64,000 nucleotides of DNA from Oribacterium asaccharolyticum ACB7 (GTDB lineage Bacteria > Bacillota > Clostridia > Lachnospirales > Lachnospiraceae). The DNA lies in assembly GCF_000238075.1 (NCBI RefSeq), contig NZ_JH414504.1, positions 49,927 through 113,926 on the forward strand, in the 5' to 3' direction. The first letter of the stretch is position 1. The number at the start of each line of letters is the position of its first letter. The notes beneath the pieces were generated by a model. The model saw nothing but the letters and a program-made list of their open reading frames with translations, did no database searches and had not been told where the DNA came from. The position numbers were made by a program, and so were the translations under genes. Below are positions 1,306 through 51,277 of this stretch, piece by piece.

Positions 1306-1404
1306 GGATAAGCGAATTCTTAATGATTAAGAATTGAATTGGAGAAGAAGAACATACTGTTGGATTTTAATTGCTTTTTAATGAAAGCAAGAAGGAGTAG
1401 AAAG

Positions 1405-4271: not shown

Positions 4272-5996
4272 ATGAAAAGAAAAAGAGTGAAGGGGAAAAG
4301 TTGTTTGGGAGCTTTTCTCTTCTTGTCCTGTGCTTTGAGTACCATGGGCTATGCCGGAACATGGAAAAATACCGGGAAGAATTGGCAATATTTGGCAGAG
4401 AGCGGAGACGCACAAAAAGGCTGGCTTTTGGATAGCGGAACTTGGTACTTTTTGGATGAAAATACCGGTGTATTGAAGGATAAATGGCTTTTTTATCAGG
4501 GGAAATGGTACTTCTTAAATCCGCAGTCTGACGGGAGCCGCGGAAAAATGCTTAGCGGCTGGCAGTGGGTTGACGGCTACTGCTATTTTCTAAAAGAGGA
4601 TGGGGAGCTCCTCCTGTCTGCGATTACTCCGGATGGTTATCAGGTAAATGAATTAGGACAGTGGGTTTCGGAAGACGGAAAAGCAATCCATATAGAAGGA
4701 AAGGGATACTCTACTAAGGCAGTGGAAGAGGAAAATAAAAATCCGGTGGTTGCGGGAGCTTCCAGAGCAGTTCCCGGAGGGAGCGGCTCGCAAGGAAGAC
4801 GGGGAGGCTCCGGTTCCGGGGGAGGCGGTCTGGGAGGAGCTTCTGCGGTAAGTCCTGCTGTGCCAAAAGAGGAGAAGAAAGAGATGGGGAATGCGCAGGA
4901 AGAGTCCAATAAGAAAGAAAATCCTGCAGAGCCACCGAAGGAAGAGAAAAAGCCGGAGGAGAAGAAAGAGAACTCGAAGGAAAATGAAGGCGGAAAAGAG
5001 AGCGAGCTTTCCAAGCTTACAGTGACTTCTGTTACGGAACTTGCCGCTGTCTCTATTGAACAGGGAAGAAGCTATTATGACAATGAGTTACCGACAAAGC
5101 TGGAATTAAATCTCAGCAATGGTAAGAAGGTAGAAGTTTCCATTCTTTCCATCGATAAGCAAAATGTAAAAACCTGGCAGCCCGGAGAATATCTTTTAAA
5201 AGTGAACTACAACCTTCCGGAAGGTGTAGAAGGAGAAAAACCGGAAGTATCGCTACGCTTCATTGTACGGAAAAAGAGCAATTTTACTTTAGAAAAAGAG
5301 GAATATGATGTTTCAGAGGATGTAGTCTTGCAGTTCCATGAAGATCAATTGGAAGAGGGAGATACGATCCATCTTGAAGCAGGTAAGTCGGAGGAGGACT
5401 ATTACTACAAGGAGCTTACGGAGGGCAGGGAGTATGAAACGGATTATGAGAATAACAGCGTTATTTTGCATTCCGATGCCTTACTGAAAAAACTATATTC
5501 TTCCGTGTATAAGGACGGAAAGCTTTCCGGATCGAAAAAAGTCTATTTGGATATCAGCAGAAAAAAGAAGGGGCAAATCGGCTTAAGTTCTTACGCCTTA
5601 CATTTTACGTATCGCCATGCAGAGAAAAAGGATGAGAAAGAGGATTCTAAGAAAGAGAATTTGATAGAGGCACATCCGGGCGGAGGTGTGACTTCCTTTA
5701 CGCAAAGAAGAGAAGATCTGCGATTCCCCTTCTATCATGGGAATTACGAATCATTGGATTTTGGGAAAATCGGGCAGATTCGATTCTATGTAGATGGTAG
5801 CAAGGAAGAATTGACAGGGCTTAAGTTGTTCAAGGGATATGCTAACGAGGATGTGCCCGAGGACGGGTACGAGGCGATTCTCGTCTTGCCGTTTTCGACA
5901 GTGCAAGAAAAGCTGCAAGACAATCAGATCAGGATCTATGGAGAGGGAGGCGGCTACAAGATTGCGCCCTTCACCATTAGTTATGAAAAGGAATAG
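4272..5996 (+). CDS. Secreted protein with N-terminal cell-wall (choline)-binding repeats
   Basis: A 574-residue exported protein. ATG 4272 follows GAGGAGGAAATC; an earlier ATG at 4242 has no site and would precede the signal peptide. Order: signal peptide ending near MGYAG; about four aromatic-Gly repeats of the cell-wall/choline-binding type (GWLLDSGTWYFLDE, KWYFLN, GWQWVDGYCYFL); a Gly/Ser linker; a Glu/Lys/Pro-rich stretch (about 200-250); then a C-terminal half of Ig-like or unassigned beta domains. Repeats at the N-terminus attach it to teichoic-acid choline or similar glycans. No enzymatic motif is visible. The protease gene begins 29 bp downstream, so the two are probably cotranscribed and may act together. 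Confidence 0.75.
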   Translation: MKRKRVKGKSCLGAFLFLSCALSTMGYAGTWKNTGKNWQYLAESGDAQKGWLLDSGTWYFLDENTGVLKDKWLFYQGKWYFLNPQSDGSRGKMLSGWQWVDGYCYFLKEDGELLLSAITPDGYQVNELGQWVSEDGKAIHIEGKGYSTKAVEEENKNPVVAGASRAVPGGSGSQGRRGGSGSGGGGLGGASAVSPAVPKEEKKEMGNAQEESNKKENPAEPPKEEKKPEEKKENSKENEGGKESELSKLTVTSVTELAAVSIEQGRSYYDNELPTKLELNLSNGKKVEVSILSIDKQNVKTWQPGEYLLKVNYNLPEGVEGEKPEVSLRFIVRKKSNFTLEKEEYDVSEDVVLQFHEDQLEEGDTIHLEAGKSEEDYYYKELTEGREYETDYENNSVILHSDALLKKLYSSVYKDGKLSGSKKVYLDISRKKKGQIGLSSYALHFTYRHAEKKDEKEDSKKENLIEAHPGGGVTSFTQRREDLRFPFYHGNYESLDFGKIGQIRFYVDGSKEELTGLKLFKGYANEDVPEDGYEAILVLPFSTVQEKLQDNQIRIYGEGGGYKIAPFTISYEKE

Positions 5997-6025: not shown

Positions 6026-9000
6026 ATGAGAAATATTTTCAGAAAATGGATAAGCGGCATTCTGGTAATGCTGCTTATATTGGGGAATGTGGCTTATACG
6101 GGGGCATTCTCTTCCTATGCGGCGATAGAAGAAAGTGAAATCGCAAAGATTATAGGAGAGCAGAAAGGCCCCTATGATGTCATGATTCGTCTCGATTATT
6201 TTGGCGCGGACAAAGATGCTTTAAGCAGAAAAGAAAAGGCGGAAAGAGCACAGAAAGAGCTTTTAGCTTATTTATCGGAAGAAAAAGAGAACGGCAACGT
6301 TGAAAAATATGAGGCCTTTTATATTGCTAACGGCGTACATGCCGTTGTGGAAAAGGCGGAGGTCTTATATGAAATTGCAAAGCAGGAAAATGTCATTGCC
6401 GTTACGCCCAATCAAAGAATAAAACTCATTCGACCTGTGGAAGAGGAAAAAAAATCCAGGAAGAAGAGGGAAATCTTTGAGCCGGATGAAAGAAGAATTG
6501 AGTGGGGCGTTTCCATGGTGCATGGAGATAAAGTCTGGGAAGAATATCAGATTACCGGGAAGGGGGTTACCGTAGGAATCATTGATACGGGGGTGAATTA
6601 TAAGCTACCGGCAATCAAGAAAAATTACAAGGGTTACGATGAAACAAGCGGAAAGTTTGACAAATCCTACTATAAAGATTTTGTGGATGGTCTGCCGGAG
6701 CCTATGGCGGATCACGTCAACGATCACGGTACGCATGTAGCCGGAACCATTACCGGTGCGGAAGGAGAAAATTTGAACCGCATAGGTGTAGCGCCGGGGG
6801 CAAAATTCATCAGTGCAAGAGCAATTAATGATCAGGGCGGTGAAACCAGTAATCTGCTTGCTGCGGCGGAATGGATGCTGGAGCAAAAGCCAGATGTGAT
6901 TAACAATTCCTGGGGAGGGGACAGCGACGACAATCGCTGGTTCTATGATATTGCCGAAGCCTGGAAGGAAGCCGGAATTGTAGGCGTTTTTGCTGCCGGA
7001 AATCAAAGCGGAAGGGAAGGCGTTCCCGGACTTGGCACAGTGGCAAATCCGGGCAATATGTTAAATGTCCTTACGGTAGGAGCGGTAGATATCCATAAGA
7101 AATTGGGGACTTTCTCGAAGAAAGGCCCCTCAGCCTTTGATGATACGAAGAAAATCATTAAACCGGAGTTGGTTGCACCGGGAGTACAGGTGCGTTCTTT
7201 GGACGCTACCGGAAATTATGTTTCCTGGAATGGTACCAGTATGGCAACACCCCATGTAGTCGGCGTCGTTGCTTTGCTTAGGGAAGCAAATCCGAATCTT
7301 TCTGTGGAAGAGATTATTTCTCTGTTGGAATCTACGGCAGAACCGCTTTCCGATGCACAATATAAAGACAGTCCTAATATGGCTTACGGCTACGGCCTGG
7401 TCAATGCCTATGATGCCGTCTCTAAGATCAAAGGAAAAGCTATCGGAAAAATCTATGGAAAGATTTTAAAAGAGGGGCAGGACCATACTGCCGCAACAGG
7501 TGAAGCGGAGTCGGAGAAAGAAGCTTATCTGGGAAGAGATTATCGGGTGAGTGCACTGCTTAAGGACGATGTTTCGATTCGTGAAGCTAAGGCTTATTTT
7601 AGCTTTAATGATGAGACGGAAGAACAAAGCATTGCGTTAAACTTACAGAGCGGCATTCAAAATGACGGAATCTATACGGGAGAAATTCAAGCGGAACTTC
7701 TGAAAGAGGGAGTCATGCATCTTCGCATTGCAGCCACGGACTTCGCCGGTAATGTTACGGAAATCAGACAGGAGGTTTCCGTGCATCCGGGGGCAAGTCT
7801 TCCGTGGGACTTTGATTTTGAAAAGGATTTGTCCGGCTTCCTTCTGAAGGGAAATTGGGCGCTTTCCAAGAGAGAATCCTCGAAAGAACCGACACTTCCG
7901 GATGGCAGTACCCAATATATCGGAATCGACGGAGGCTCTCCCATCTTTACAGCAAGCGTAGAAAGCTCCCTGGAATTACCGCCAATGGATTTCAGTGCAT
8001 TTTCCAAAGGAGATAACTTATGTCTTACGGCGGATGTGTACAATTCTTTCCAAGGAATTTGTCGTGCGGAAATTCAGGCAAGATTGGCTTCCGAAAAGGA
8101 ATGGAAGACGGTTTACCAAACGGTTTTAAGACCGGATATTACGGAAAGATCCTGGGAAAGAAACAGCTATTCTTTGGCGGAATATGCCGGAGCGGGAGAA
8201 CCCGTATTGCTGCGCTTTTATTTCCTGGGAAGAGGAGAAGGCGCAGGATGGTATTTGGATAATCTGCATATCGGGCTTGGAGATACCCTTCCTCCGAAAA
8301 AGGTGGAAGGGCTGAAGGCTGAAATGGAGGAAAGGGGGATTCGTCTCCGTTTCACCATGAACGAAGAGACGGATATGAAAGAATACGCCATAGAGAAAAA
8401 GGCTTCGGGAGAGGAGGAATTTCGGGAAATTGCAATTCTTCCGCAGGGCTTTAAGAAGAAATTTATAGATGAGAAGGGCGTAAAAACACACTATGAAATG
8501 TCTTATTTGGATGAAGATGTTTTGGAAGGAGAAAGCTATAGCTATCGGATTATTGCAAGAGATTTGTCGGGAAATGAAAGTGAAAGCTCCAAGACGCTTA
8601 AGGTAAAATACGGAAGCTTAAGAAGCAATGTTTCCTATAATTTTGATGATGAGGATGGCGGTTTTCAGCCGGAGACCCTGCAGTACAATATCAATGATTG
8701 GGAGCATGGCAAGATAGCGCTTCCTGCCGATTGGATGGAGAAGACCCTATTATATCGGAATGTTTACGAAGGTCTTATGGTTAATCAGACCGGCGTATGG
8801 GGGACGGTCCTGAACGGTCCGATGAGTCACGGTTTTACAGTGAAGCAGGATGCGGTTCTTTTGATGCCTTCCTTTACAGTGGAAAAAGGGGATTATTTTT
8901 ACTTTGACAGTTTCTCCGTTCGTAGCAATATCGACCAGAACATCAGTTTCACGGTGGAAATACAAAAGGAGGGAGAGGACAGCTTTGCCACACTGTTCAG

Positions 9001-12000
9001 TAAAGAAAAGATACAGGGCTTTTCTGCACCGCAGCAGTGGCATACCTTATCCCAAAGTCTTGATTCCTACGTGGGGGAAACGGTGCAGGTTCGTTTCAGA
9101 GTGCAGGCTGACGGAGGGCTCCGAGATGAGTATAACGTTGGTTGGTATATTGACAATGTCTATGTGGGAGAAAAAAAGAACTCCACAGAGAATAGTAATA
9201 TTGCAACAAACACTACAATAACAGAGTCGGAAAAAGACGAAATTAATGCTGCCTCAGATACGGATTCGGCCGGTTTTTCCGCTGAAAACGAAGGTCTTTT
9301 TGCTTCCGATGAGGAAAGCTCCATTGACAATGTAGAGGGGTATGCTGAAAAAGAACAGCAGGGAATTCCGCTGGAGGCAAAAATTGAGGTCCTGGAAAGC
9401 GGCAAATATACCATGGCCAGTGTTCTGGACGGAAGCTATTCGCTGGAGCATGCGGTAAACAATCCGGAAGAGCCCTTTACTGTGGAGGTTTCCGCCTATG
9501 GCTATGAGACGGAAGTGAAAAAAATAGATTTAAGCAAGAATCCGGTGCAGGAGTACAACTTCCTTTTAAAAGAAAAGAAAAGGTCCGAAATTCGCGGAAA
9601 GGTACTGGATAAGGACGGACATTCCTTGAAAGGAGTCAGCCTACAGTTATTGGAGGATTCCCGTCTTCCGCGCGCGGAAACGAATGAAGAAGGGACATTC
9701 CTCATTCAGCAGGCCTATACCGGAGCCTATACTCTGAAGGTCTATAAGAAAGGATACCTTCCGAAAGAAATAAGCATTCAGCTTGGAGAGGAGGCTTTGG
9801 AACTCCCAAGTATTGTTCTTAATGAAGAATCGAAAGATGGGAAAGAAGCGGAAACGGATTACGGTTTTCAAGTGGAAGAAAAGAACGGAGCATATGATAC
9901 AATTCATTTTCTAAACGGAATGAAGGGCAGTGCTGTACGTTTTCAGGCCCCCTTTAAGGGTGCTGTCTTAAAGTCTGCAAAGCTTTTCCTGGTCAATAAC
10001 AGCTATTACAACGGAAACCATATCGAAATCGGCGTTTTAGGATATGATACGGAAAAACGTTTACGGGAACTTGCCCCCTTTAGAGACTATGGGAATTATA
10101 GCAAGAATGCCTGGAACGAAATTGATCTCAGTGAATATCAGATTAAGCGGAATGAGCCTCTTTACATTGCAACAAGCTATAAAACCGCTTTGTCGGACAG
10201 TTTGGGACTGTATTATGATGTAAATGCCAAAGAAGAGGCAAAGAAGAGAAGCTATGTTTATGACGGCGCTTTTACCGAGACTTCCGCGTTGCAGGGAGTC
10301 GGTGCGTTTGCCATAAAAGCAACTTGGACTTATCCGGAAGGTGCAGAGAAGAATCCGGAAACGGAGGTGGATGACAGCTCAAACAATACCGGAGGAGATA
10401 TTCATCCCATCGTAGAAGAAGATTTTGACTTTGATGATGCGACACAGACCATTATAAAATACAACGGAAAGAATCCGGAGGTGCTCATTCCGAAAACCAT
10501 TCGGGGTGTTGCGGTAAAACACATCGGAGAGGGAGCCTTTAACAAAATCAATCAGGAATATGAGACAAAGATCAAATCGCTGATTGTCCCGGAGGGTGTT
10601 GAGACAATCGGAAAGGATGCATTTAAAAATAATCGTCTGGAAAAAGTCAGACTTCCGGAAAGCTTAAGTGAAATCGGAGAAGCTGCTTTTCAATTTCAAT
10701 ATAAAGACAGCGGAACGGATAAAACAGACTTTTCAATCAATATTCCAAAGGGTGTGAAAGCCATTCACAAAAATACTTTTTCTTCAGCGGGAAGTCCTCT
10801 TTTAGTGACCTCAGCGGATGGGCTGGAAAAAATTGAAAAAGATGCTTTTTCTTACAATAAAGAGGTGGAGATTCATGCAGACAAGCTGCAAGAAATAGAG
10901 GAAGGTGCCTTTGGCGTGGATAAAAGGGCGATTTTCTCTTATGCAAAAGTTTTTACCAAAGAAGACAGCGCTTTACAGTCCAAAGATGGAGAATATCTGA
11001 TTAATCCTACCTTTGTGAATCTCACTGCGATAGACGCCAAGGATTCGGAAAAAGTATTAAGGAGAAGCGTAGTGTACGGTCCGGGAAATAGTACAGGCTA
11101 CGGACGAAATCAAGAGGTAAAGGCATTTTATCGGATGGGAGAAACAGCCAGGATAGAAGCGGAAGATTTTAAAAAGGGAGGACAAGACTATACCAGCGTG
11201 GAAGAAGCGAAAGAAATGACGCTAGGCAAGCAAAACAGTCTTAGCTTCCAATACTACCTTTTGTCTATGCAGCTTCGCCTTCCGATTCTGGATTCGGATC
11301 GGAATCTTCCCGGCTTTACCCTACCCTCCGGAAAAGTAAAGTTGATTCAAGAGAAGAATGAGGGCGGTACCGTTACACAGGATGAGGTTAAGGCAAATGA
11401 GGATGGATTCTTTGCCCTGCCGCTCCCTGCCTTATCGGAAGGAGACAAAATCATTCTGTCCGTAAACGGTAAAAAGCCATCCGAATATGTAGTAGAGAAG
11501 ACCCCGAACAAAAAGTACGTCGTAGAAAAAGGAAAGCTGCTTCGTTATCTCGGAGAAGAGAAGGCATTGCAGATTCCGACCTCCTTCAGTACTGCGGGAG
11601 ATATAACGGAGATTGGCGACTTTGCCTTTTATGAGAAGAGCCTGGATACGGTGGAAATTCCGGTGAAGGTAAATACTATCGGCGCGGGTGCTTTTATGAA
11701 TAGCGGTTTGCACAGCTTTAGCTTTGCGGCGGAAAATGTTAATTTGGCTGCACTTCGCATCATTAAGGAATATGCTTTTAAAAACAACAAACTGCAGTCT
11801 ATTGAGGCTCTTCCGGAACTGACGCACGTTATTCAGAAAAAGGCCTTTGAAAACAATGCCTTGGAAAAGCTGGTGCTTAGTAAATATCTGGGGCACGTTG
11901 GGGAAGCCGCTTTTAAGAACAACAAAATCAAAACCATTTCCATTCTGGGTAACATAGAGGAACTGGGGAGAGAAGCCTTTATGAACAATGAACTTACTTC

Positions 12001-12859
12001 CGTACAATTCCTTGAGCCGCAAAATGCGAAAGAAGATATGGAAGGGGTGAGCCATCTCGAAGAAGCTGTCTTTGCCAACAATGCCATAAAGGAAGTTGAG
12101 CTGGGAAAAAGCATTAAAACAGTGGATGACACGGCATTTCTCGGAAATCGGGGCGGACTGCCGACCCTAAAAACGGATGCGGAGGGCATTACGGCAACAA
12201 AGACGTATGATGTACTGCGTTCCGACGGTACTCTCTTAAGTCTGGAGAAAAAAGAAGATTCGGAAGGCAAGAAAGAAGACTCACAGAAAGAAGAGAAGAA
12301 GGATTCCAAAGATAAGCCGTCCGGTACTGCCGGAAGACCCTCTCGAGGATCCGGTAGTGCGGGGAGATCGTCTAATGCATCCGGAAGCAGCGGAGGAAAC
12401 GGGAAGGTTCCGCAGGTATTGGGAGTGGCAAAAGACTTATCCGAAGCATCGTCTGCGGATACCTTACCGAAGAATTACCAAGGAGAAGTAAAGCTGCTCT
12501 ATGGAAAAAGAGTTCCTTCCCAAGTTGTGGATCCGATTTGGGTTATGAACTTCCGTAACCATCGTTATATGCTTGTAAACCAAGAAGGAGAATTTTATAA
12601 AAATGCTTGGGTTTTGGTTTTCCGGCACAGTGTAACGGAAAAAACGAACGGTCTGCCTTATGCATGGTATCATTTTGATGAAAACGGGATGATGCAGACC
12701 GGCTGGTTTGAAGAAGCGGGGAATCGGTATTATTTCTCCGAAGAGGAAGGGGCGGACATCGGCGTCATGCTTACGAAGAATCAGGAGATTCACGGAAAAA
12801 ACTATTCCTTTGAAGAAAGTTTTGGCTCACAAATGGGACAGCTTTTATCCGGTGGATAA
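6026..12859 (+). CDS. Giant subtilisin-like (S8) surface protease with BspA-type repeats and C-terminal wall-binding repeats
   Basis: 2277 residues, with GGGGAAGCT before the ATG. Signal peptide about 1-33; I9-like propeptide region about 50-130; S8 catalytic domain about 170-470 with triad Asp187 (IIDTG), His234 (DHGTHVAG) and Ser405 (GTSMATP). After it come two jelly-roll/MAM-like modules ending in WYLDNLHIG and WYIDNVYVG, with a fibronectin-like module between them. Next are carboxypeptidase-regulatory-like beta domains, then two blocks of BspA-type leucine-rich repeats (IGEGAFN, IGKDAFKNNRLEKV, VGEAAFKNNKIKTI). A Gly/Ser linker leads to wall-binding repeats (YAWYHFDENGMMQTGWF). It should be exported and bound to the envelope, and the triad suggests activity. 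Substrates are unknown. Such mosaics resemble mucosal colonisation factors, which is inference. Confidence 0.88.
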   Translation: MRNIFRKWISGILVMLLILGNVAYTGAFSSYAAIEESEIAKIIGEQKGPYDVMIRLDYFGADKDALSRKEKAERAQKELLAYLSEEKENGNVEKYEAFYIANGVHAVVEKAEVLYEIAKQENVIAVTPNQRIKLIRPVEEEKKSRKKREIFEPDERRIEWGVSMVHGDKVWEEYQITGKGVTVGIIDTGVNYKLPAIKKNYKGYDETSGKFDKSYYKDFVDGLPEPMADHVNDHGTHVAGTITGAEGENLNRIGVAPGAKFISARAINDQGGETSNLLAAAEWMLEQKPDVINNSWGGDSDDNRWFYDIAEAWKEAGIVGVFAAGNQSGREGVPGLGTVANPGNMLNVLTVGAVDIHKKLGTFSKKGPSAFDDTKKIIKPELVAPGVQVRSLDATGNYVSWNGTSMATPHVVGVVALLREANPNLSVEEIISLLESTAEPLSDAQYKDSPNMAYGYGLVNAYDAVSKIKGKAIGKIYGKILKEGQDHTAATGEAESEKEAYLGRDYRVSALLKDDVSIREAKAYFSFNDETEEQSIALNLQSGIQNDGIYTGEIQAELLKEGVMHLRIAATDFAGNVTEIRQEVSVHPGASLPWDFDFEKDLSGFLLKGNWALSKRESSKEPTLPDGSTQYIGIDGGSPIFTASVESSLELPPMDFSAFSKGDNLCLTADVYNSFQGICRAEIQARLASEKEWKTVYQTVLRPDITERSWERNSYSLAEYAGAGEPVLLRFYFLGRGEGAGWYLDNLHIGLGDTLPPKKVEGLKAEMEERGIRLRFTMNEETDMKEYAIEKKASGEEEFREIAILPQGFKKKFIDEKGVKTHYEMSYLDEDVLEGESYSYRIIARDLSGNESESSKTLKVKYGSLRSNVSYNFDDEDGGFQPETLQYNINDWEHGKIALPADWMEKTLLYRNVYEGLMVNQTGVWGTVLNGPMSHGFTVKQDAVLLMPSFTVEKGDYFYFDSFSVRSNIDQNISFTVEIQKEGEDSFATLFSKEKIQGFSAPQQWHTLSQSLDSYVGETVQVRFRVQADGGLRDEYNVGWYIDNVYVGEKKNSTENSNIATNTTITESEKDEINAASDTDSAGFSAENEGLFASDEESSIDNVEGYAEKEQQGIPLEAKIEVLESGKYTMASVLDGSYSLEHAVNNPEEPFTVEVSAYGYETEVKKIDLSKNPVQEYNFLLKEKKRSEIRGKVLDKDGHSLKGVSLQLLEDSRLPRAETNEEGTFLIQQAYTGAYTLKVYKKGYLPKEISIQLGEEALELPSIVLNEESKDGKEAETDYGFQVEEKNGAYDTIHFLNGMKGSAVRFQAPFKGAVLKSAKLFLVNNSYYNGNHIEIGVLGYDTEKRLRELAPFRDYGNYSKNAWNEIDLSEYQIKRNEPLYIATSYKTALSDSLGLYYDVNAKEEAKKRSYVYDGAFTETSALQGVGAFAIKATWTYPEGAEKNPETEVDDSSNNTGGDIHPIVEEDFDFDDATQTIIKYNGKNPEVLIPKTIRGVAVKHIGEGAFNKINQEYETKIKSLIVPEGVETIGKDAFKNNRLEKVRLPESLSEIGEAAFQFQYKDSGTDKTDFSINIPKGVKAIHKNTFSSAGSPLLVTSADGLEKIEKDAFSYNKEVEIHADKLQEIEEGAFGVDKRAIFSYAKVFTKEDSALQSKDGEYLINPTFVNLTAIDAKDSEKVLRRSVVYGPGNSTGYGRNQEVKAFYRMGETARIEAEDFKKGGQDYTSVEEAKEMTLGKQNSLSFQYYLLSMQLRLPILDSDRNLPGFTLPSGKVKLIQEKNEGGTVTQDEVKANEDGFFALPLPALSEGDKIILSVNGKKPSEYVVEKTPNKKYVVEKGKLLRYLGEEKALQIPTSFSTAGDITEIGDFAFYEKSLDTVEIPVKVNTIGAGAFMNSGLHSFSFAAENVNLAALRIIKEYAFKNNKLQSIEALPELTHVIQKKAFENNALEKLVLSKYLGHVGEAAFKNNKIKTISILGNIEELGREAFMNNELTSVQFLEPQNAKEDMEGVSHLEEAVFANNAIKEVELGKSIKTVDDTAFLGNRGGLPTLKTDAEGITATKTYDVLRSDGTLLSLEKKEDSEGKKEDSQKEEKKDSKDKPSGTAGRPSRGSGSAGRSSNASGSSGGNGKVPQVLGVAKDLSEASSADTLPKNYQGEVKLLYGKRVPSQVVDPIWVMNFRNHRYMLVNQEGEFYKNAWVLVFRHSVTEKTNGLPYAWYHFDENGMMQTGWFEEAGNRYYFSEEEGADIGVMLTKNQEIHGKNYSFEESFGSQMGQLLSGG

Positions 12860-22977: not shown

Positions 22978-23024
22978 AGAAATTGATTTACGGAAGAATA
23001 ATAGCGTGAATCTAAGGAGGAAAG

Positions 23025-24047: not shown

Positions 24048-24048
24048 A

Positions 24049-29575: not shown

Positions 29576-29707
29576 ATCTTCAAATACCTCGATAGATTGC
29601 TATTTTATCTTAAGAAATCAAAAGCGCATTAAACGTAAAAAACCTTATCACAAATCGGAGAAAAGTGCCAGTCGACATTTCGGATTACTCCGGTCAATGC
29701 TTCTCCA

Positions 29708-29737
29708 CTTTTTCCCATCCTTTTTCCCATCCTTTTT
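29708..29737. repeat. Tandem 12-bp repeat, 2.5 copies
   Basis: CTTTTTCCCATC occurs twice in succession, followed by a third partial copy, in the gap of about 280 bp between two divergent glycan genes. No gene or clear consensus promoter is otherwise visible in that gap, although TATAAAAT lies about 45 bp before the flippase start. Confidence 0.6.
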
Positions 29738-29853
29738 ACATCTCCTTATTACCTATTTGTAAGATGCTTCCAATTTTTCCGGCATTTACATTTTCCTGCG
29801 CTTACTATAAAATTGAACAATCTTTACGGTGAGGAAAGGAACAATAGAAATTC

Positions 29854-31119
29854 ATGGAACAAAAGCGGATTTCCTTTATGGAAAATGATGTACTTTGGAA
29901 TGCGCTCGGGAGCATGATGTATGCGCTTGCTTCCATGATTTTGGCTTTTTTTGTTCTGCGTCTTCTCGGGGAAAAGGAGGGAGGCATCTTCGGATTCGGC
30001 TATTCCACCCTGGGACAGCAGTTTTTTATTCTGGCTTATTTCGGCATTCGTCCTTTTCATATTACGGATATGCGGGGAGAATTTTCCTTTCGGGAATATC
30101 TGGGATTTCGGAACCTAAGCACAGCACTTTCCGTTTTCATTGCTTTACTCTTTCTTCTTTATCAGTATCTGGAGGGGAATTATACGGCAGAGAAGAGTGC
30201 TATCCTGTTTTTTCTTTGCCTGTACAAAATCTTAGACGGCTACGTAGATGTTTATGAGTCGGAACTGCAAAGAAGAGGAAAGCTTTACAAGACAGGACAG
30301 TCTCTCTTCTTCAGAACTCTCTTTGCCGTAGTTCTTCTACTCATTACACTGCTACTCACAAAAAATCTGTTTCTCGGCGTGATTCTTATGAATCTTTGCC
30401 AGCTTTTTTGCTTTTATTTCTTCTGTCTTTCTCCGCTAAAGAAAACTGTTGCGATAGGAGAGGAGAGGCGTTTTAGCTTTGAAGCGGGAAAGAGACTCAT
30501 TATGGAGAGCTTTTTTCTCTTTATTTCGGTTTTTTTGGACTTCTATGTGTTTTCGTCCTCCAAGTATGCCGTAGATGCGGTAATGGGTTCCTCGTTTTCC
30601 GGGATTTACAACCTCCTCTTTATGCCCAGTAATTTCATCTATCTGCTGGCAAATTTCATCATTCGGCCGGCTCTTCCGAGACTCGCCGCGCTTTGGCAGG
30701 AAGGAAAGACCGGGGATTTCAGGAAAGAAGAAGGCAGTCTTATGAAGAAGGTACTCCTGCTTTCCTTTGTTCTTCTTATCTTAGCGGTACTTCTCTCTCC
30801 TCTTGCACTTTGGATTCTGGAGAGACTTCTCGGAGAGACTTTTTACGGGAAAATGACGGCAGAGCGCTTTTCTTTCTGCCTCCTCATTTTGGGAGGCTGT
30901 TTCTATGCCCTTGCGAATCTTGAGTACTATCTTCTTGTGACAAAGAGAAGGCAGAAGAAGATTTTTGCAGGCTATCTTATCGCTTCCGTTCTCTCTTTTC
31001 TCACAGCGGATTATATGCTTGAGAGCGGAGGATTTTTCTTCGGTTCATTGCAATTTGCGGGGATGATGCTCTTTCTCTTCCTTTTTTTCTTCCTCTCTGA
31101 AAAAACAGGAAAGGGCTAG
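29854..31119 (+). CDS. Flippase-like polysaccharide membrane protein
   Basis: 421 residues with about 11-12 hydrophobic segments. The N-terminal NDVLWNALGSMMYALASMI and the regular alternation of helices match the MATE-like polysaccharide flippase (Wzx/RfbX) superfamily. That family moves lipid-linked glycan units across the cytoplasmic membrane. GGTGAGGAAAGGAAC precedes the start at about 20 bp, so the exact start is not certain. It is flanked by two glycosyltransferases, which supports a cell-surface polysaccharide role. Confidence 0.75.
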   Translation: MEQKRISFMENDVLWNALGSMMYALASMILAFFVLRLLGEKEGGIFGFGYSTLGQQFFILAYFGIRPFHITDMRGEFSFREYLGFRNLSTALSVFIALLFLLYQYLEGNYTAEKSAILFFLCLYKILDGYVDVYESELQRRGKLYKTGQSLFFRTLFAVVLLLITLLLTKNLFLGVILMNLCQLFCFYFFCLSPLKKTVAIGEERRFSFEAGKRLIMESFFLFISVFLDFYVFSSSKYAVDAVMGSSFSGIYNLLFMPSNFIYLLANFIIRPALPRLAALWQEGKTGDFRKEEGSLMKKVLLLSFVLLILAVLLSPLALWILERLLGETFYGKMTAERFSFCLLILGGCFYALANLEYYLLVTKRRQKKIFAGYLIASVLSFLTADYMLESGGFFFGSLQFAGMMLFLFLFFFLSEKTGKG

Positions 31120-31323
31120 AAAGTGGAGTCTGTAGGGGTAGAAAGTGGAGTCTTTCTTTTCATTCCGGCTTAGGCATGGTAAAATAGGCTCATTGATTTT
31201 TTATCAAGTCAGATAGGGCCTTAATAGTTGAGAGAGTGTCCTACTCAGAAAGGACACTGAACTTGCATTTTGAATATAGATTTTGCATTGTTATGCAATA
31301 GGGAATTGGAATAGTGTAGGCGG

Positions 31324-32361
31324 ATGACAGATTGTTTTAGGCAGGACAGTCCGGAAGAGGCTGTCCTTAGAGAAGAAAATAGAAGAGAGAAGGAGAACGA
31401 AAGGCGGCAGGGAGGGAGAGAAACGCTCCCCTCTTTTGATGTCTTGATTCCGACCTATAAGCCGGGAGAGAAATTTCGTGCCCTGCTTTCGGCGTTGGAA
31501 GAGCAGGAGTTCCCTCCGGCAAAGATCATTATTGTGAATACCGAGGAACGATATTTCCCAAAAGAGCTTTTAGAAGGAAGGAAAGTGGAAGTCTCGCTCC
31601 ATCACATAAAAAGAGAGGACTTTGATCATGCCTATGCGAGAAATCTCGCGGCCTCCTTTTCCGATGCGGAGTATTTTTTATCGATGACCGATGATGCGGT
31701 GCCGGCGGATAAAAAGCTCACAAAAGAACTGCTTACGGCTTTTTCTTGGGACAATCGTATCGCCGAGGTATACGCAAGACAGCTTTGTACGAAGGACAGT
31801 TCCTTTGATGAAGTGCTCTCCAGAAGCTTTAACTATGGGGATAAAGTGGAAATAAAGGGAATAGAGGATGTGAAAAGACTCGGTATTAAGTGTTTTTTTG
31901 CTTCCAATGTCTGCTGTATGTATAAAAAAGCGGTGTTTCGGGAACTTCAAGGCTTCCAATCGCCTACCATCTTTAACGAGGATATGATTTTTGCGGCAAG
32001 GGCGGAAAAGGCAGGGTATAAGGTCGCTTATAATCCTTTGGCAAGGGTTTACCATTCTCATCATTACTCGGCAGGACAGCAGTTTAGAAGAAACTTTGAC
32101 CTGGGGGTGTCTCATAGGGATTTTCCGGAGATTTTTTCTCTTGTGCCGCCTGAGAAGGAAGGGATGAAGATGTTCAGGCAAAATGCAAAAACGCTTGTTT
32201 CCGAGGGGAAGGCCCTTCTTCTTGTTCCTCTCTTTTTCAGGACGGGAGCACGTTTTCTCGGCTATAAGGCAGGAAAGAAATATCCGGTACTGCCGCGAAT
32301 TTTAAGAAATGCCATTACTTTAAATCCTCAGTATTTTGAAAAAAAGGAAGAGAAGTCGTAA
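31324..32361 (+). CDS. Family 2 glycosyltransferase, rhamnosyltransferase-like
   Basis: 345 residues. A charged 37-residue N-terminal extension precedes the GT-A domain (FDVLIPTYKPGEKF). IIIVNTEE, then REDFDHAYARN and SMTDDAVPAD follow, a pattern typical of bacterial rhamnosyltransferases. The domain continues to NEDMIFAARAEKAGY. The C-terminus has a basic membrane-associated helix. It probably adds rhamnose from dTDP-rhamnose, tying it to rfbA-rfbB-rfbD upstream. The start lacks a strong ribosome site, and a later start is possible. Confidence 0.8.
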   Translation: MTDCFRQDSPEEAVLREENRREKENERRQGGRETLPSFDVLIPTYKPGEKFRALLSALEEQEFPPAKIIIVNTEERYFPKELLEGRKVEVSLHHIKREDFDHAYARNLAASFSDAEYFLSMTDDAVPADKKLTKELLTAFSWDNRIAEVYARQLCTKDSSFDEVLSRSFNYGDKVEIKGIEDVKRLGIKCFFASNVCCMYKKAVFRELQGFQSPTIFNEDMIFAARAEKAGYKVAYNPLARVYHSHHYSAGQQFRRNFDLGVSHRDFPEIFSLVPPEKEGMKMFRQNAKTLVSEGKALLLVPLFFRTGARFLGYKAGKKYPVLPRILRNAITLNPQYFEKKEEKS

Positions 32362-46155: not shown

Positions 46156-46271
46156 AAGCCATAACCTGAAAACGGGATTTTGAAAAAATGAGCTATCTTG
46201 TGTTTTAGCATGCTGTTTTGCTATGCGTAAACGCAGAAAATGAAAGTAGTACAGGACAAAAGCCTTCTTTT

Positions 46272-46300
46272 TTGTTATCATATTGTTCATGAAATATTAT
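46272..46300 (+). promoter_or_regulatory. Promoter of the licCA-like fusion gene
   Basis: TTGTTA (46272-46277) and TATTAT (46295-46300) have an exact 17-bp spacer, about 50 bp before the translation start. Confidence 0.7.
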
Positions 46301-46319
46301 TGTTGTTTGAAAATGAACA
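46284..46319. promoter_or_regulatory. Inverted repeat overlapping the licCA-like promoter
   Basis: TGTTCAT (46284-46290), between the -35 and -10 elements, matches ATGAACA (46313-46319), just downstream of the -10. The half-sites are about 29 bp apart centre to centre, so a bound dimer would need to loop or bend DNA. The encoded protein carries a winged helix and could bind here, which is inference. Confidence 0.5.
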
Positions 46320-46350
46320 GAATGGTTTAGGACATAGAAAAGGAGAAGAG

Positions 46351-48267
46351 ATGAATTCCTGTGCTATTTTATTGCGAAATATTATGGAAAATCCTGATTT
46401 TAGCCAAAGACAGTTGGCAGAGAGAACAGGAATGTCGCTCGGGAAAGTGAATCGTTGTCTGAAAGATTGGGAAGAACAAGGCTATTTAAAAAAAGCAAAT
46501 GAATCCAAAGTAGAAGGCCGTTCCGTAAAGCAAAATGCCACCGAAAAACAGAGCCATGCAGAAAACCGAATTAAAAAGGGGCAGTCACGAATGCTTACGG
46601 AAAAAGGAAAGGCTTTTTTAGAGGCGAATAAGGTAGATGCGGCTCTTATCCTGGCGGCAGGCTTCGGTTCCCGCTTTGTGCCCTTAACTTATGAATGCCC
46701 GAAGGGACTCCTGGAGGTCTTCGGCGAAAGAATGGTAGAGCGGCAGATTAAGCAGCTTCATGAGGTAGGAATTTACGACATTACCATTGTTGTTGGCTAT
46801 CTGAAGGAAAAATTCGACTACTTAATTGATGCCTACGGAGTAAAGCTTTTGTATAATCCGGAGTATTCTGTGAAGAATACGCTCGGGACACTTTATCATG
46901 CGAGAAAAGCCATGGAGGGGAAGAACTTTTATATCCTTTCTTCCGATAACTGGATGCGGGAAAATATGTACCATAGCGTGGAACCCCTTTCCTGGTATGC
47001 GGCGAGCTTTATGGAGGGAGAGACCAAGGAGTGGGTTTTACATTGCGCGAAGGACGGACAAATTAAAAGTGTAGAGGTTGGAGGAGAAAATGCCTATTGT
47101 ATGTACGGCCCGGTATTTCTGAAGAAAGAATTCTTTTCCGCCTTCCTGCCTTACCTGGAGGAATACTACCATAAACCGGGAACGGAAGACTTTTACTGGG
47201 AAGATGTCCTTCGCCTGGCCTTAAAACATTTACCTCCGATTTATCGGAATGAGCAGAAGGATGGACAGATTTACGAATTTGAAAATCTGGAAGAGTTACG
47301 TGCCTTCGATGAGAAATACAATCACAGTTCCGGTTCGGAAGCCATGGAACTGATATCTGCCGTTTTCCATATTCCTGAGTGCGAAATTGTGAAGCTTCGC
47401 TGTCTGAAGGCCGGTATGACCAATCAATCCTTCCTTTTTCGGATCCATAAAGAGAGTAGGAATAAGGACTATGCCGGAAAGGACTTTATCTGCCGCATCC
47501 CGGGAGTGGGAACGGGGAAGCTCATTAATCGAAAAGAAGAGGAAGAAATTTACCGCATTGTGAAGGATTTGCATATTACCGAGGAGCTCCTCTACTTTAA
47601 TCCGGAAAACGGTTATAAAATTTCTCGCTACTATGAAGAGGCAAGAAATGCGGACTTTTCAAAGCAGGAAGAGAGAAGAGCCTGCATGAAGCAGTTACTG
47701 AAACTTCATGAGGGAAAGAAAACAGTGGGTCATCCCTTCTCTTTAAGGGAAAGATTAGCGTATTATGAAGCGATTTGTTTGGAAGGAGGGGGAGAAATTC
47801 CCTATCAGGATTACGAAAAAATAAAGCCGGATAGAGAAAAAATGCTTTCGTTTACGGAGAAATCCAATCCGCCTCTTTGTCTTTGTCATATTGACGCGGT
47901 ACAGGACAACTTCATTTTCACAAAAGAGGGCGTGAAAATGATTGACTGGGAATATGCAGGTATGGCGGATCCTTTACTGGATATTGCGATGGGAGCAATT
48001 TATTCCTATATGGACTTTCAAGAAGCGAAGAGCTTGCTGGAGGACTATCTCTTAGCGGCAGAAGAGGCGAAAGTGGCAGAACCTCTGCTTCTTCACGGCA
48101 GAACGAAAGAACAACTGGAAAAACTTCTCGTTGCTTACATGGGGCTTTCCGGTCTCCTTTGGAGCCTGTGGTGCGCCTATAAGATGCGAAAGGGGCAGGA
48201 ATTCGGAGAATACAGCTTGAAAATGCTTCGTTACTTTAAGGAGGCAAAGAAAACTTTGGGACTGTAA
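46351..48267 (+). CDS. Winged-helix / LicC-like nucleotidyltransferase / LicA-like choline kinase fusion
   Basis: 638 residues from ATG 46351 (AAAAGGAGAAGAG before it); the frame from 46240 crosses the promoter. Residues 1-60 form a winged helix (FSQRQLAERTGMSLGKVNRCLKDW). A nucleotidyltransferase follows (about 97-320, LILAAGFGSRF with Arg108, then PKGLLEVFGERM), similar to CTP:phosphocholine cytidylyltransferase LicC. The C-terminal part (about 345-638) is a choline/aminoglycoside-kinase fold with CHIDAVQDNF (His513, Asp515, Asn520) and MIDWEY (Asp532). The likely pathway is choline to phosphocholine to CDP-choline for decorating wall glycans. Choline specificity is inferred; other alcohols are possible. 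It may regulate its own promoter. Confidence 0.8.
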   Translation: MNSCAILLRNIMENPDFSQRQLAERTGMSLGKVNRCLKDWEEQGYLKKANESKVEGRSVKQNATEKQSHAENRIKKGQSRMLTEKGKAFLEANKVDAALILAAGFGSRFVPLTYECPKGLLEVFGERMVERQIKQLHEVGIYDITIVVGYLKEKFDYLIDAYGVKLLYNPEYSVKNTLGTLYHARKAMEGKNFYILSSDNWMRENMYHSVEPLSWYAASFMEGETKEWVLHCAKDGQIKSVEVGGENAYCMYGPVFLKKEFFSAFLPYLEEYYHKPGTEDFYWEDVLRLALKHLPPIYRNEQKDGQIYEFENLEELRAFDEKYNHSSGSEAMELISAVFHIPECEIVKLRCLKAGMTNQSFLFRIHKESRNKDYAGKDFICRIPGVGTGKLINRKEEEEIYRIVKDLHITEELLYFNPENGYKISRYYEEARNADFSKQEERRACMKQLLKLHEGKKTVGHPFSLRERLAYYEAICLEGGGEIPYQDYEKIKPDREKMLSFTEKSNPPLCLCHIDAVQDNFIFTKEGVKMIDWEYAGMADPLLDIAMGAIYSYMDFQEAKSLLEDYLLAAEEAKVAEPLLLHGRTKEQLEKLLVAYMGLSGLLWSLWCAYKMRKGQEFGEYSLKMLRYFKEAKKTLGL

Positions 48268-48281
48268 AAGATTTTTTATGT

Positions 48282-48321
48282 AAAACGGGATATCGTGTAT
48301 AGGCGCACGATATCTCGTTTT
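48282..48321 (+). terminator. Terminator after the licCA-like gene
   Basis: AAAACGGGATATCGTG (48282-48297) pairs with CACGATATCTCGTTTT (48306-48321), with one G-T wobble, around an 8-nt loop and ending in T4. Confidence 0.8.
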
Positions 48322-48413
48322 GCAAACTTTAGAAGCTTATAGTAAGGCTGAAAAAGGTCGATGAAAAAGAGAATTCTATTTACTAAAAGCAAAATTAAGA
48401 ACAATTATTTATC

Positions 48414-48441
48414 TTGTTTTTCTTTGGAAAAGAAGTAAAAT
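48414..48441 (+). promoter_or_regulatory. Promoter of the NADH oxidase gene
   Basis: TTGTTT (48414-48419) and TAAAAT (48436-48441) have a 16-bp spacer, about 55 bp before the ATG. Confidence 0.5.
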
Positions 48442-48494
48442 AGATTATAAGAGCAGAAATGCTTAAGAGCGATTAAAATTCAAGGAGGATTCCC

Positions 48495-49853
48495 ATGGCA
48501 AAAACAATTTTAGTAGGAGCAAATCACGCAGGAACGGCCTGCGCCAACACCATTCTGTCTTATCCCAATCAGGAGCTTACCATTTATGACCAAAACAGCA
48601 ACATTTCCTTTTTGGGATGTGGAATGGCACTCTGGATTGGAGAGCAGATTCATTCGGGAGACGGTTTGTTTTATGCAAAGCCCGAGAATTTCCTGGCAAA
48701 GGGAGCAAAGGTAAACATGGAATCACAGGTCCTTTCCGTGGATTACGACAAGAAGACTGTGAAGGTACAGCTTAAAGACGGACAGGTGATTGAAGATCAC
48801 TACGACAATTTGGTTTTTGCTACAGGATCTATCCCCAACAGAATCCCGGTAAAGGGCTTTGACTTGGAGAATGTGCAGATGGTAAAGCTTTATCAAAATG
48901 CCGAGGAAGTCATTGAAAAACTGAAGAACAAGGGCGAGTTCAAGAAGGTATGTGTCCTGGGAGGAGGCTATATCGGTGTGGAGCTTGCAGAAGCCTTCCA
49001 GCGTCTTGGCTTGGAAGTAACCTTAATCGATATGGTGGATCGTATTCTTGCAGGCTATTTTGATGCTCCCTTCTCCGATGAGTTAAAGAACAGAATGGAA
49101 GAGCACGGCATTAAGCTTGCTTTGGGTGAGAAGGTAGAAGAGTTCTTAGGAGAAGGTAAGGTATCCGGCGTTAAGACCGATAAGGGCGTATATGATGCGG
49201 ATATGGTAATCTGTGCTGTGGGCTTCAGACCGAATGCAAGCTTAGGAGCGGACCACTTAAAGCTGTATGCAAACGGCGCTTATCTGGTAAACAGAAAGCA
49301 GCAGACCAGCGATCCTTCCGTTTATGCCATCGGAGACTGTGCAAGCCTTTATGACAATGCAAGAGGCAGAGAAAACTATATAGCCTTGGCGACCAATGCT
49401 GTACGTTCCGGCGTTGTGGCAGGACATAACATTTGCGGAACACCTGTAGAAAGCTTAGGTGTTCAGGGCTCCAGTGCTTTGGGAATCTACGGCTATAAGC
49501 TCTCCTGCACCGGACTTTCCTTAGCGGCGGCGGAGAGAGAAGGCATGTCTGTATCCTATGAGGATTATGAGGACACGCAGTTCCCTGCCTTCATGGAAGT
49601 GGAGAATCCGAAGGTCAAGATTCGAATCGTCTACAAGAAGGATGATAAGAAGATTGTGGGCTGCCAGTTAGGATCCAGCTACGATGCAACTGCCATTATT
49701 CATTTCTTCTCTCTGGCTATTCAGAAGGGATTGACCATGCCGGAGCTTCCCTTGGTGGATCTGTTCTTTATGCCGCACTTTAATCAGCCGTATAACTATG
49801 TAACCATGGCAGGCTTGCAGTGGCTTAATAAAGAGTTGGGCTTAAAGGGCTAA
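48495..49853 (+). CDS. nox: NADH oxidase, H2O-forming type (CoA-disulfide reductase family)
   Basis: 452 residues. The FAD site is VGANHAGTACANTI, and the single redox Cys is Cys42 in SFLGCGMALW. The NAD site is VLGGGYIGVELAEAF, and YAIGDCASLYD closes FAD. This is the pattern of water-forming NADH oxidases and NADH peroxidases of Gram-positive bacteria. It regenerates NAD and removes oxygen in an anaerobe. The exact product (water or peroxide) is inferred. CAAGGAGGATTCCC precedes the ATG, and a strong terminator follows. Confidence 0.88.
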   Translation: MAKTILVGANHAGTACANTILSYPNQELTIYDQNSNISFLGCGMALWIGEQIHSGDGLFYAKPENFLAKGAKVNMESQVLSVDYDKKTVKVQLKDGQVIEDHYDNLVFATGSIPNRIPVKGFDLENVQMVKLYQNAEEVIEKLKNKGEFKKVCVLGGGYIGVELAEAFQRLGLEVTLIDMVDRILAGYFDAPFSDELKNRMEEHGIKLALGEKVEEFLGEGKVSGVKTDKGVYDADMVICAVGFRPNASLGADHLKLYANGAYLVNRKQQTSDPSVYAIGDCASLYDNARGRENYIALATNAVRSGVVAGHNICGTPVESLGVQGSSALGIYGYKLSCTGLSLAAAEREGMSVSYEDYEDTQFPAFMEVENPKVKIRIVYKKDDKKIVGCQLGSSYDATAIIHFFSLAIQKGLTMPELPLVDLFFMPHFNQPYNYVTMAGLQWLNKELGLKG

Positions 49854-49914
49854 GATTCCCATTGTGCTGAAAGAAAAAATAATTCGCGGTATTTTTTATA
49901 AATATACTATACCT

Positions 49915-49950
49915 AAAAATGCTCAGACTCTTTACGTCTGAGCATTTTTT
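49915..49950 (+). terminator. Terminator after the NADH oxidase gene
   Basis: AAAAATGCTCAGAC (49915-49928) pairs exactly with GTCTGAGCATTTTT, leaving a 7-nt loop and a T run. It is the strongest terminator in this part of the window. Confidence 0.95.
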
Positions 49951-50069
49951 CTTGAAACATTTTTGGAAGGAAAGAACTTGAAAATAGAAAAAAGCATTAA
50001 AAGGAGAAAAAATTCGTATAATTGTTAAGGAAAAGTAAGAGCTTAGTATAGAAATTTGAAAGCAAGCTA

Positions 50070-50078
50070 TGCTATAGT
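50070..50078 (+). promoter_or_regulatory. Extended -10 promoter of the wall-binding repeat gene
   Basis: TGCTATAGT holds TATAGT at 50073-50078 with a TG extension. It is about 95 bp before the ATG. No -35 at the right spacing stands out. Apart from it, the 317-bp gap before the gene holds the upstream terminator and an AT-rich leader. Confidence 0.5.
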
Positions 50079-50170
50079 TTAGAAAAGACGAAAATGGGCA
50101 GTTTTCTAAGGAAAAAGAGAGCTGCTTTTTTCATAGCCTTGTAATGAATCCGCTTTAAAGGGAGGAAAAT

Positions 50171-51277
50171 ATGAATTTAGGAAAAAGATTCGGTTTGAAA
50201 GCATTGGCGTTAGGACTTTGCATCGCCAGTCTTTCGATGACGGCTTTAGCCGCAGGTTGGGGACAGGAAAAAGGAAAATATTATTTCATTGATCCGAAGA
50301 ATAATGAAAAGGTTAGCGGAAAGTGGATCCACACTTCCTCCGGGTACTATTATATCGGTGCAGATACCTATATGGTGACCGGCTGGAAGAAGATCAATAA
50401 TTCTTGGCATTATTTTCGCCCGTCGGGACTGATGGTGACCGGCTGGAGAGAGGTGGACAAGCTGTGGTATTATCTGAAGTCCGATGGAACCATGCAGACC
50501 GGTTGGTTAAAATTACAGAAGGACGGGAAGGATGTCTGGTATTATCTGAAGGCTTCCGGAGCGATGGCAACGGGCTGGAGAAAGATTTCCGACAAATGGT
50601 ATTACTTTAATCCGGAAGACGGTTCTTTAGTGATGCAGAAATGGCTTAAGATTTCCGATAAGTGGTATTACTTCGGTTCTGACGGTGCAATGCAGAGCGG
50701 TTGGTTGAATCTGAATGGAGAGTACTACTATCTTTCCTCGGCGAATGGCAATATGGAAACCGGTTGGAAGACCGATACCGACGGAAACAAGTACTACATG
50801 GATTTAGGAAACGGAAAGATGTCTACCGGCTGGAAGCAGATAGAGAATGCTTGGTATTATTTCTTAAATAACGGAAAGATGGTAAAAGGTTGGCTGAAAG
50901 AGAAGGGTCATTATTACTATCTGGAAGACGGCAAGATGCTGGCAAACACCACGGTAACCTTGGACGGACGCAGTTTCAGCTTTAATGAATACGGTGTATG
51001 TACTTCGGATACTTCCAATCTGAACTTTACAGAGGCAAATACCCAGAATAACAACAATAACAACAGCAATAGCAACAACAGTCAGGGGCCAGGAGCGGCA
51101 GGACCCGGCGTGACCGGTCCCGGAGGAAACAGCAGTACCGAATCAAATACGAGTCCGAACCCAAGCGCAAACCAGAGCAGTTCTGATGGACCGAGTGCGC
51201 AGGGACCGTCCGGAACGAGTCCCAACGCTTCTTCCGGCGGAACAATACAGCCGGGAAGTACTACCGGACCGCAATAA
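50171..51277 (+). CDS. Secreted cell-wall/choline-binding repeat protein
   Basis: 368 residues. A signal peptide ending near MTALAAG is followed by about ten aromatic-Gly repeats of the cell-wall-binding type (GWKKINNSWHYFRPSG, GWREVDKLWYYLKSDG, GWRKISDKWYYFNPEDG). The C-terminal 90 residues are Asn/Ser then Gly/Pro/Ser-rich, with no further domain. It has no catalytic region, so it may be a structural or adhesive layer on choline-decorated teichoic acid. GGGAGGAAAAT precedes the ATG. Its proximity to the licCA-like gene (2 kb) supports a shared choline theme. Confidence 0.85.
   Translation: MNLGKRFGLKALALGLCIASLSMTALAAGWGQEKGKYYFIDPKNNEKVSGKWIHTSSGYYYIGADTYMVTGWKKINNSWHYFRPSGLMVTGWREVDKLWYYLKSDGTMQTGWLKLQKDGKDVWYYLKASGAMATGWRKISDKWYYFNPEDGSLVMQKWLKISDKWYYFGSDGAMQSGWLNLNGEYYYLSSANGNMETGWKTDTDGNKYYMDLGNGKMSTGWKQIENAWYYFLNNGKMVKGWLKEKGHYYYLEDGKMLANTTVTLDGRSFSFNEYGVCTSDTSNLNFTEANTQNNNNNNSNSNNSQGPGAAGPGVTGPGGNSSTESNTSPNPSANQSSSDGPSAQGPSGTSPNASSGGTIQPGSTTGPQ

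Follow-up and report, generated by a model that had tools for sequence, protein, structure and literature searches.

Among described systems, those closest to the locus considered here are the lic pathway of Streptococcus pneumoniae, which comprises LicB, LicA, LicC, LicD1/LicD2 and TacF, and that of Treponema denticola, whose LicCA protein is reportedly a fusion, in agreement with the spirochaete loci in our data. Pathway enzymes that carry a DNA-binding domain are known elsewhere, as in NadR and BirA, and the half-sites of the BirA operator are widely spaced. Bacterial phosphocholine is a target of C-reactive protein and of natural antibodies, and host and gut microbes compete for the choline of the diet. 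Here we report a computational analysis of a 64,000-nucleotide stretch of the Oribacterium asaccharolyticum ACB7 genome (contig NZ_JH414504.1, positions 49,927 to 113,926; hereafter the window), containing a gene, licCA, for a protein that combines a winged helix-turn-helix (wHTH) with LicC-like and LicA-like domains. We consider it probable that LicCA both prepares choline for decoration of the cell surface and represses its own gene and choline acquisition through an operator. A literature search conducted mostly outside subscription papers returned no description of the fusion, of the operator or of phosphocholine in Lachnospiraceae.

An earlier note on this DNA, made from the sequence alone, proposed that a winged helix, LicC and LicA are joined in one protein, and the proposal is borne out by Pfam, matches in the PDB and the predicted fold. 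Hidden Markov model searches detect the winged helix (HTH_24, 36.7 bits, cut-off 21.9) and place both catalytic domains above their Pfam cut-offs (NTP_transferase, 51.8 bits, cut-off 21.2; Choline_kinase, 56.2 bits, cut-off 29). Many related NCBIfam models also match, the equivalogs all falling under their cut-offs. The top PDB sequence matches are the pneumococcal CTP:phosphocholine cytidylyltransferase LicC (1jyk, E=1.9e-35) and choline kinase LicA (4r77, E=1.9e-26). For the predicted model (15-sequence alignment, mean pLDDT 82.4, pTM 0.64), Foldseek ranks choline-bound LicA first (TM 0.83 by target) and places LicC (1jyk and 1jyl) at ranks 5 and 6 (TM 0.85). The longest open reading frame (ORF) is 46240-48267, and the true start is placed at the ATG at 46351, as in the earlier note, because AAGGAG lies ahead of it and most of 14 aligned relatives start at or adjoining this position. 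In the winged helix, T55, Q56, R57, S66, L67 and N71 are nearly invariant and G68 is invariant across 15 sequences. A homologue search gave 1789 matching proteins of 7995 candidates scored. Among the matches listed, both catalytic domains are present in 119 of 120 homologues by precomputed Pfam labels, and the closest named homologue is an Oribacterium protein with 57% identity. The named licCA loci, at least 80 in number, are mainly from Lachnospiraceae.

LicA residues around choline and catalytic residues, taken from PMC4364537, were mapped by eye on the LicCA-4r77 alignment (numbering of the 46240 ORF; minus 37 from the true start). Ten of the 11 mapped residues (T394, D552, V554, N557, D569, E571, Y572, W641, W644 and Y658) are identical to those of pneumococcal LicA, and all ten are invariant in 15 aligned sequences. 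The type of kinase, on which the earlier choline assignment depended, also agrees with that assignment, the nearest protein by both sequence and fold being pneumococcal LicA (judged by best matches). LicCA is thus predicted from its sequence to have choline kinase and CTP:phosphocholine cytidylyltransferase activities.

The regulatory layer, absent from the earlier note, consists of an inverted repeat at 46284-46319 in front of licCA, the only perfect copy of TGTTCA-N24-TGAACA in the window. It begins two bases past a TATCAT box in a promoter-like site found by a consensus scan (two sites against 0.9 in shuffles, weak on its own), and in the consensus across loci the left half-site overlaps the extended -10 box, TG.TATAATGTTCA. 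An exact GTTCA-N-TGAAC pair is present in 78 of 96 licCA upstream sequences, with spacings of 24 (65 times), 25 (14) and 33 (1). At 99 licCA loci, with the start-codon region included, TGTTCA-N24/25-TGAACA is perfect in 59 and has one mismatch of 12 in 28; these 87 loci include some titled Bacillus, Coriobacteriia, Erysipelothrix and Limosilactobacillus. The remaining 12 have two or more mismatches or no site, L048 and L072 being cut by a contig end. Not all 99 loci are independent, L001/L097, L027/L045/L057 and L037/L100 sharing identical stretches. Of 4800 shuffled upstream sequences, none had the inverted repeat at spacing 23-25, and about 0.2% had it when all spacings between 18 and 34 were allowed. 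In the same loci, 1.43 Mb of sequence away from licCA (counting overlapping loci) contains a single site with spacing 24 and no site with spacing 25. A chance origin of the repeat is rejected on the basis of these shuffles and this background. With up to two mismatches allowed, the window contains three sites against 2.69 expected; the loose pattern is therefore unremarkable there, and the operator is argued from the perfect copy, from where it lies and from its conservation. The half-sites start 30-31 bp apart, or about three helical turns, a spacing that would suit a dimer held together by large catalytic parts.

The operator might instead be served by a separately encoded regulator, with the winged helix of LicCA acting as a structural or protein-protein interaction part. 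The role of LicCA at the operator is one that we infer, and six licCA loci with a definite or possible helix (L056, L061, L071, L076, L078 and L103) show no good site. However, the site accompanies wHTH-bearing licCA across distant taxa, and was not found at four spirochaete licCA genes with no space for a winged helix (L063, L066, L068 and L069; those of L068 and L069 begin close to a contig end). Together with the lack of the site at distant importer genes (see below), this makes a separate regulator unlikely, and we favor operator binding by LicCA.

The same site precedes other genes with a possible role in choline supply. A motif scan of eight whole genomes, carried out without use of gene function, led to importers of the betaine/carnitine/choline transporter (BCCT) family in five (G037, G045, G001, G035 and G062). 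A looser 10-letter pattern gave 47 sites in the eight genomes, compared to 16 for a reversed control; eight are at licCA (one in each genome), six at BCCT genes (five genomes), and 33 were unclassified. In 61 related genomes (described below), 33 BCCT matches were found and 30 retrieved as loci, one of which (L206) gave no match and was left out of the site scan. A perfect site lies in front of 15 of 21 close BCCT genes (at least 44% identity to that of G037; 16 of 22 with G037 itself), compared to none of eight distant BCCT genes scanned, and 16 of the 61 genomes have a BCCT gene preceded by the site. The close genes without it are those of G066, G076, G088, G038, G042 and G033, the last with its gene start cut off. 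In other genera, 20 regions were picked by eye for being AT-rich or close to LicD; the site precedes a BCCT gene in 13 of them, and 11 of these 13 also contain LicD. In Bacillus timonensis, for example, licCA and the BCCT gene form one operon behind the site, beside an amidase with choline-binding repeats. The operator-linked BCCT genes score 398-440 bits against TIGR00842 (cut-off 407.55).

Two further kinds of gene are found behind the operator. In five Lacrimispora genomes, the site precedes a fusion of a LicC-like domain with a CobD-like pyridoxal phosphate enzyme (181-192 bits to TIGR01140, below cut-off), and a methyltransferase gene lies beside it in the three genomes checked. This fusion is present in six of 32 genomes, the sixth (G010) having no site there and lying about 3 kb from LicD. 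Together with the methyltransferase, it could constitute a new de novo route that leads from phosphoserine by way of phosphoethanolamine to cytidine diphosphate-choline (CDP-choline). In G015 (L247:5085-8410), two tandem perfect sites precede a UgpA/UgpB-like ATP-binding cassette transporter (below equivalog cut-offs), perhaps for the import of glycerophosphocholine; no phosphodiesterase gene was present among the five downstream genes checked. To offset the choice by eye, 18 further perfect sites were fetched, excluding licCA copies already among the loci. Among the matches listed, 44 perfect sites (17 of 26 genomes; counted by hand) are distributed over licCA (12), BCCT (10), LicC-CobD (4) and Ugp-like genes (2), the interior of ORFs (13, by simple longest-ORF calls) and other non-coding positions (3; L264, L265 and L268). 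Outside ORFs, 28 of the 31 sites among these matches thus precede one of the four gene types. In L268 (2119-2155; Limosilactobacillus, G025), the perfect site overlaps the beginning of a frame of 608 codons, by eye similar to a phosphotransferase system transporter, and may be a chance occurrence or a target.

The 61 related genomes, assembled around G001, include 24 with licCA and 37 without. Both catalytic domains are present in 22 of the 24 (the G087 gene with an internal stop), while G040 and G066 contain partial pieces, whose omission alters the results little. G088, counted among the 37, has separate neighboring LicC-like and LicA-like matches (C13:875-3922) beside its BCCT gene, which lacks the operator. 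Some LicD is found in 22 of the 24 licCA genomes compared to 11 of the 37 others (Fisher p=1.4e-6), the LicD orthologue (at least 223 bits, the next score being 112) in 17 compared to one (p=9.9e-9), at least 15 Choline_bind_3 matches in 22 compared to one (p=2.7e-13), and a BCCT importer in 22 compared to six (p=4.1e-9), p-values that overstate the independent evidence because the genomes are kin. In G036, which gave no licCA match, the LicD orthologue is present together with 52 matches to the repeats and a BCCT gene preceded by a perfect operator; the lack of licCA there is likely an assembly gap. In the nearest congeners, G038 and G042, LicCA is 85% identical to that of the window, and LicD matches number nine and five, respectively, in each case including an orthologue tied to licCA. 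The LicD transferase that the earlier note had named as a check is therefore present in both congeners and in most licCA genomes, an outcome that rests on relatives. A LicD match is present in 27 of 30 genomes picked from the named licCA loci, exceeding the cut-off in 26, and none was found in G019, G021 or the Treponema genome G023. In G038 (C1:1298238-1311460), seven tandem LicD-domain matches, in open frames of about 650-690 codons, occur in addition to the single LicD orthologue.

Of the three proteins to which the earlier note assigned choline/cell-wall-binding repeats, the one downstream of licCA is strongly supported and that at 4272-5996 is above the cut-off, while the protein at 6026-12859 is mainly subtilase and LRR_5 with one marginal repeat, and is possibly a surface client. 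The repeats of the first align to pneumococcal choline-binding modules (E=3e-30 to 2e-27) and also match toxin and glucan-binding (glucosyltransferase) repeats. Such repeats could thus bind glycans, their co-occurrence with choline enzymes reflecting shared ancestry only: clostridial toxin repeat domains give this protein its highest summed score, and the Trp of GW..WYY is present, by a simple motif, in only five of its nine units. We regard this explanation as improbable in view of the pneumococcal alignments, the near-restriction of repeat-rich genomes to those with licCA and the proximity of the genes, repeats being found within 4 kb of licCA at 60 of 79 loci (L001-L079) from many genera (11 lack them despite full flanks; eight have flanks too short). 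The preferred reading, that the repeats recognize choline, agrees with the coherent system of choline incorporation and binding proposed in the earlier note, which is supported by the co-occurrence of LicD and repeats with licCA.

Gene order points the same way. The order glutamine synthetase, licCA, repeat gene seen in the window is kept in seven of ten licCA regions (L129, L130, L136, L137, L138, L139 and L145), two of which (L129 and L130) also have nox between licCA and the repeat gene, as in the window; the order differs in L140, L141 and L144. The nox gene (48495), found at the licCA locus only in the window and these two regions, and the glutamine synthetase gene (44053), a case of plain synteny, were considered as members of the system and dropped. 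In G062, LicD, several repeat proteins, a BCCT importer and licCA lie within one 19-kb stretch, and in G051 licCA, a second LicC-like gene, BCCT, LicD, a flippase-like gene and a repeat-bearing amidase are consecutive. The orthologous LicD of G045 lies among glucose-1-phosphate cytidylyltransferase, CDP-glucose 4,6-dehydratase and RfbH (each over its NCBIfam cut-off, L135) and a GT2 glycosyltransferase; the LicD loci of G038 and G042 contain all but the RfbH-like gene. This CDP-deoxysugar gene context suggests that the phosphocholine acceptor is a glycan containing a deoxysugar made by way of CDP.

A different fate for CDP-choline is incorporation into phosphatidylcholine, as reported for Treponema denticola, rather than transfer to a surface glycan. 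The CDP-choline route to phosphatidylcholine in Treponema is described in PMC7368946, the four spirochaete loci encode fused LicC-LicA, and Treponema G023 is without a LicD match. In addition, two or more CDP-alcohol phosphotransferase matches are present in ten of the 24 licCA genomes (two each in G038 and G042), and the sole NCBIfam match of the LicD orthologue is to diacylglycerol cholinephosphotransferase, below cut-off. Against this, no more than one such phosphotransferase match is present in 14 of the 24 licCA genomes, compared to 19 of the 37 others, and it was this lack of an excess with licCA that led us to reject phosphatidylcholine as a general use. The accompaniment of licCA by LicD and choline-binding repeats, and the deoxysugar and glycosyltransferase surroundings of LicD, likewise argue for a surface glycan, and we consider it doubtful that membrane lipid is the main destination.

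Several observations weigh against a choline-decorating and self-repressing LicCA, in addition to the kinship of the genomes and the six loci with a helix or possible helix and no good site. Glu213 of LicA corresponds to Tyr588 in LicCA, and this tyrosine is invariant in 15 sequences. G076 and G087 contain licCA with zero and two repeat matches, G039 and G087 lack LicD, and G064 and G087 lack BCCT. An orthologous LicD is missing from seven of the 24 licCA genomes, G032, G051, G059, G064 and G076 having only a more distant LicD. The LicD and the importer of the window's own genome are deduced from the congeners, and the BCCT genes of both congeners have no operator within 300 bp.

In the proposed mechanism, the LicA part would phosphorylate choline and the LicC part would activate the product to CDP-choline, from which a LicD transferase encoded elsewhere would place phosphocholine on a surface glycan, for the docking of secreted choline-binding-repeat proteins. 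LicCA, probably as a dimer set by choline, phosphocholine or CDP-choline as ligand, would bind TGTTCA-N24/25-TGAACA, repressing its own promoter and, in relatives, the BCCT-family importer and other choline-supply genes. With plentiful choline or CDP-choline, LicCA would occupy the promoter, stopping import and enzyme synthesis, and scarcity would open it. We infer the surface phosphocholine, the DNA binding and the identity of the ligand from the genes and sites; repression is suggested as the sign of control because the operator lies over the promoter. More tentatively, the wHTH-LicC-LicA protein may be a master enzyme-repressor of the choline economy of Lachnospiraceae and relatives, reading its own CDP-choline through the 36-37 bp operator and balancing BCCT and Ugp-like import with the de novo route of Lacrimispora, with many clostridia keeping a phosphocholine surface along with its bound proteins.

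The features discussed are collected in Table 1. Elsewhere in the window, a large Cna_B/SpaA-type surface protein (1339-3894) lies beside the repeat proteins at 4272-5996 and 6026-12859, and nucleotidyltransferase, dehydratase and RmlD-type sugar genes, two GT2 genes and a flippase-like protein (22096-24975 and 28562-32361) form a surface-glycan region. This multi-helical flippase candidate (29854-31119) has Polysacc_synt in three of ten aligned homologues (best 1.7e-6), and the best solved structure found with its profile is lipid III flippase (E=0.014, weak). Its AlphaFold model was poor (mean pLDDT 47.6) and was not used. Homologues are present in 25 of the 61 genomes; outside the closer relatives of the window, a homologue lies within about 2 kb of LicD in five of nine genomes (G051, G060, G064, G065 and G073). 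Because two of these five, G060 and G073, are without licCA, the candidate is associated with LicD glycans, and an association with choline is not clear. According to PMC7368946, pneumococcal tacF also sits with licD.

Table 1. Features of the licCA system and associated genes (window positions unless a locus is named).
Feature	Coordinates	Strand	Evidence
wHTH-LicC-LicA protein, 638 aa	46351..48267	+	Pfam, PDB sequence match, predicted structure and fold match, start site
Winged helix (HTH_24)	46372..46491	+	Pfam, residues 45-84 of 46240 ORF
LicC-like cytidylyltransferase part	46633..47316	+	Alignment to 1jyk, residues 132-359 of 46240 ORF
LicA-like choline kinase part	47377..48234	+	Alignment to 4r77, residues 380-665 of 46240 ORF
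Predicted operator, perfect TGTTCA-N24-TGAACA	46284..46319		Only perfect copy in window; conserved at licCA in relatives
Promoter-like site, extended -10, just before operator	46253..46281	+	Consensus scan 9/12, TG before second hexamer
Secreted choline-binding-repeat protein, downstream of licCA	50171..51277	+	Choline_bind_3 159.8 bits (cut-off 27)
Second repeat protein	4272..5996 (ORF-list start 4242)	+	Choline_bind_3 42.8 bits, Choline_bind_2 30.4 bits; above cut-off
Subtilase with LRR_5 and one marginal choline-binding repeat (30.1 bits)	6026..12859	+	Pfam
Candidate MOP-type (TacF/Wzx-like) flippase, low confidence	29854..31119	+	Polysacc_synt in homologues; distant homologues near LicD
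LicC-CobD fusions behind operator, Lacrimispora	L252:4977-7388, L253:2410-4818, L255:5337-7768		

If the proposed system is correct, phosphocholine would be carried on the surface by many species in a large family of gut and mouth bacteria, and a single short sequence motif would identify the genes that serve that surface. It would also provide a further clear example in which the enzyme for activating a nutrient governs the uptake of that nutrient. Thanks to the operator, the claim can be put to a direct test with a single purified protein and a single piece of DNA.

The locus has LicA, LicC and choline-binding repeats in common with the pneumococcal lic pathway, and the LicD family is represented here in relatives. 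By contrast, LicA and LicC are here fused behind a winged helix, and a BCCT importer is linked and apparently co-regulated in relatives (no search was made for LicB). In relatives, LicD is found among CDP-deoxysugar genes, phosphocholine being predicted from genes. With the Treponema pathway the locus shares LicC and LicA in one chain, while the window LicCA has the winged helix that, like the operator, is missing from the four spirochaete loci, and Treponema G023 differs in having no LicD match. The operator-linked importers belong to the same family as known BCCT betaine/carnitine/choline transporters, and fall below the NCBIfam cut-offs for the glycine betaine, carnitine and choline equivalogs. 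Like NadR and BirA, LicCA has a DNA-binding domain fused to a pathway enzyme, with a predicted operator of wide half-sites at its own and uptake genes. It differs from both in its enzymes and its pathway, and is likened to them in its working, not as a family member.

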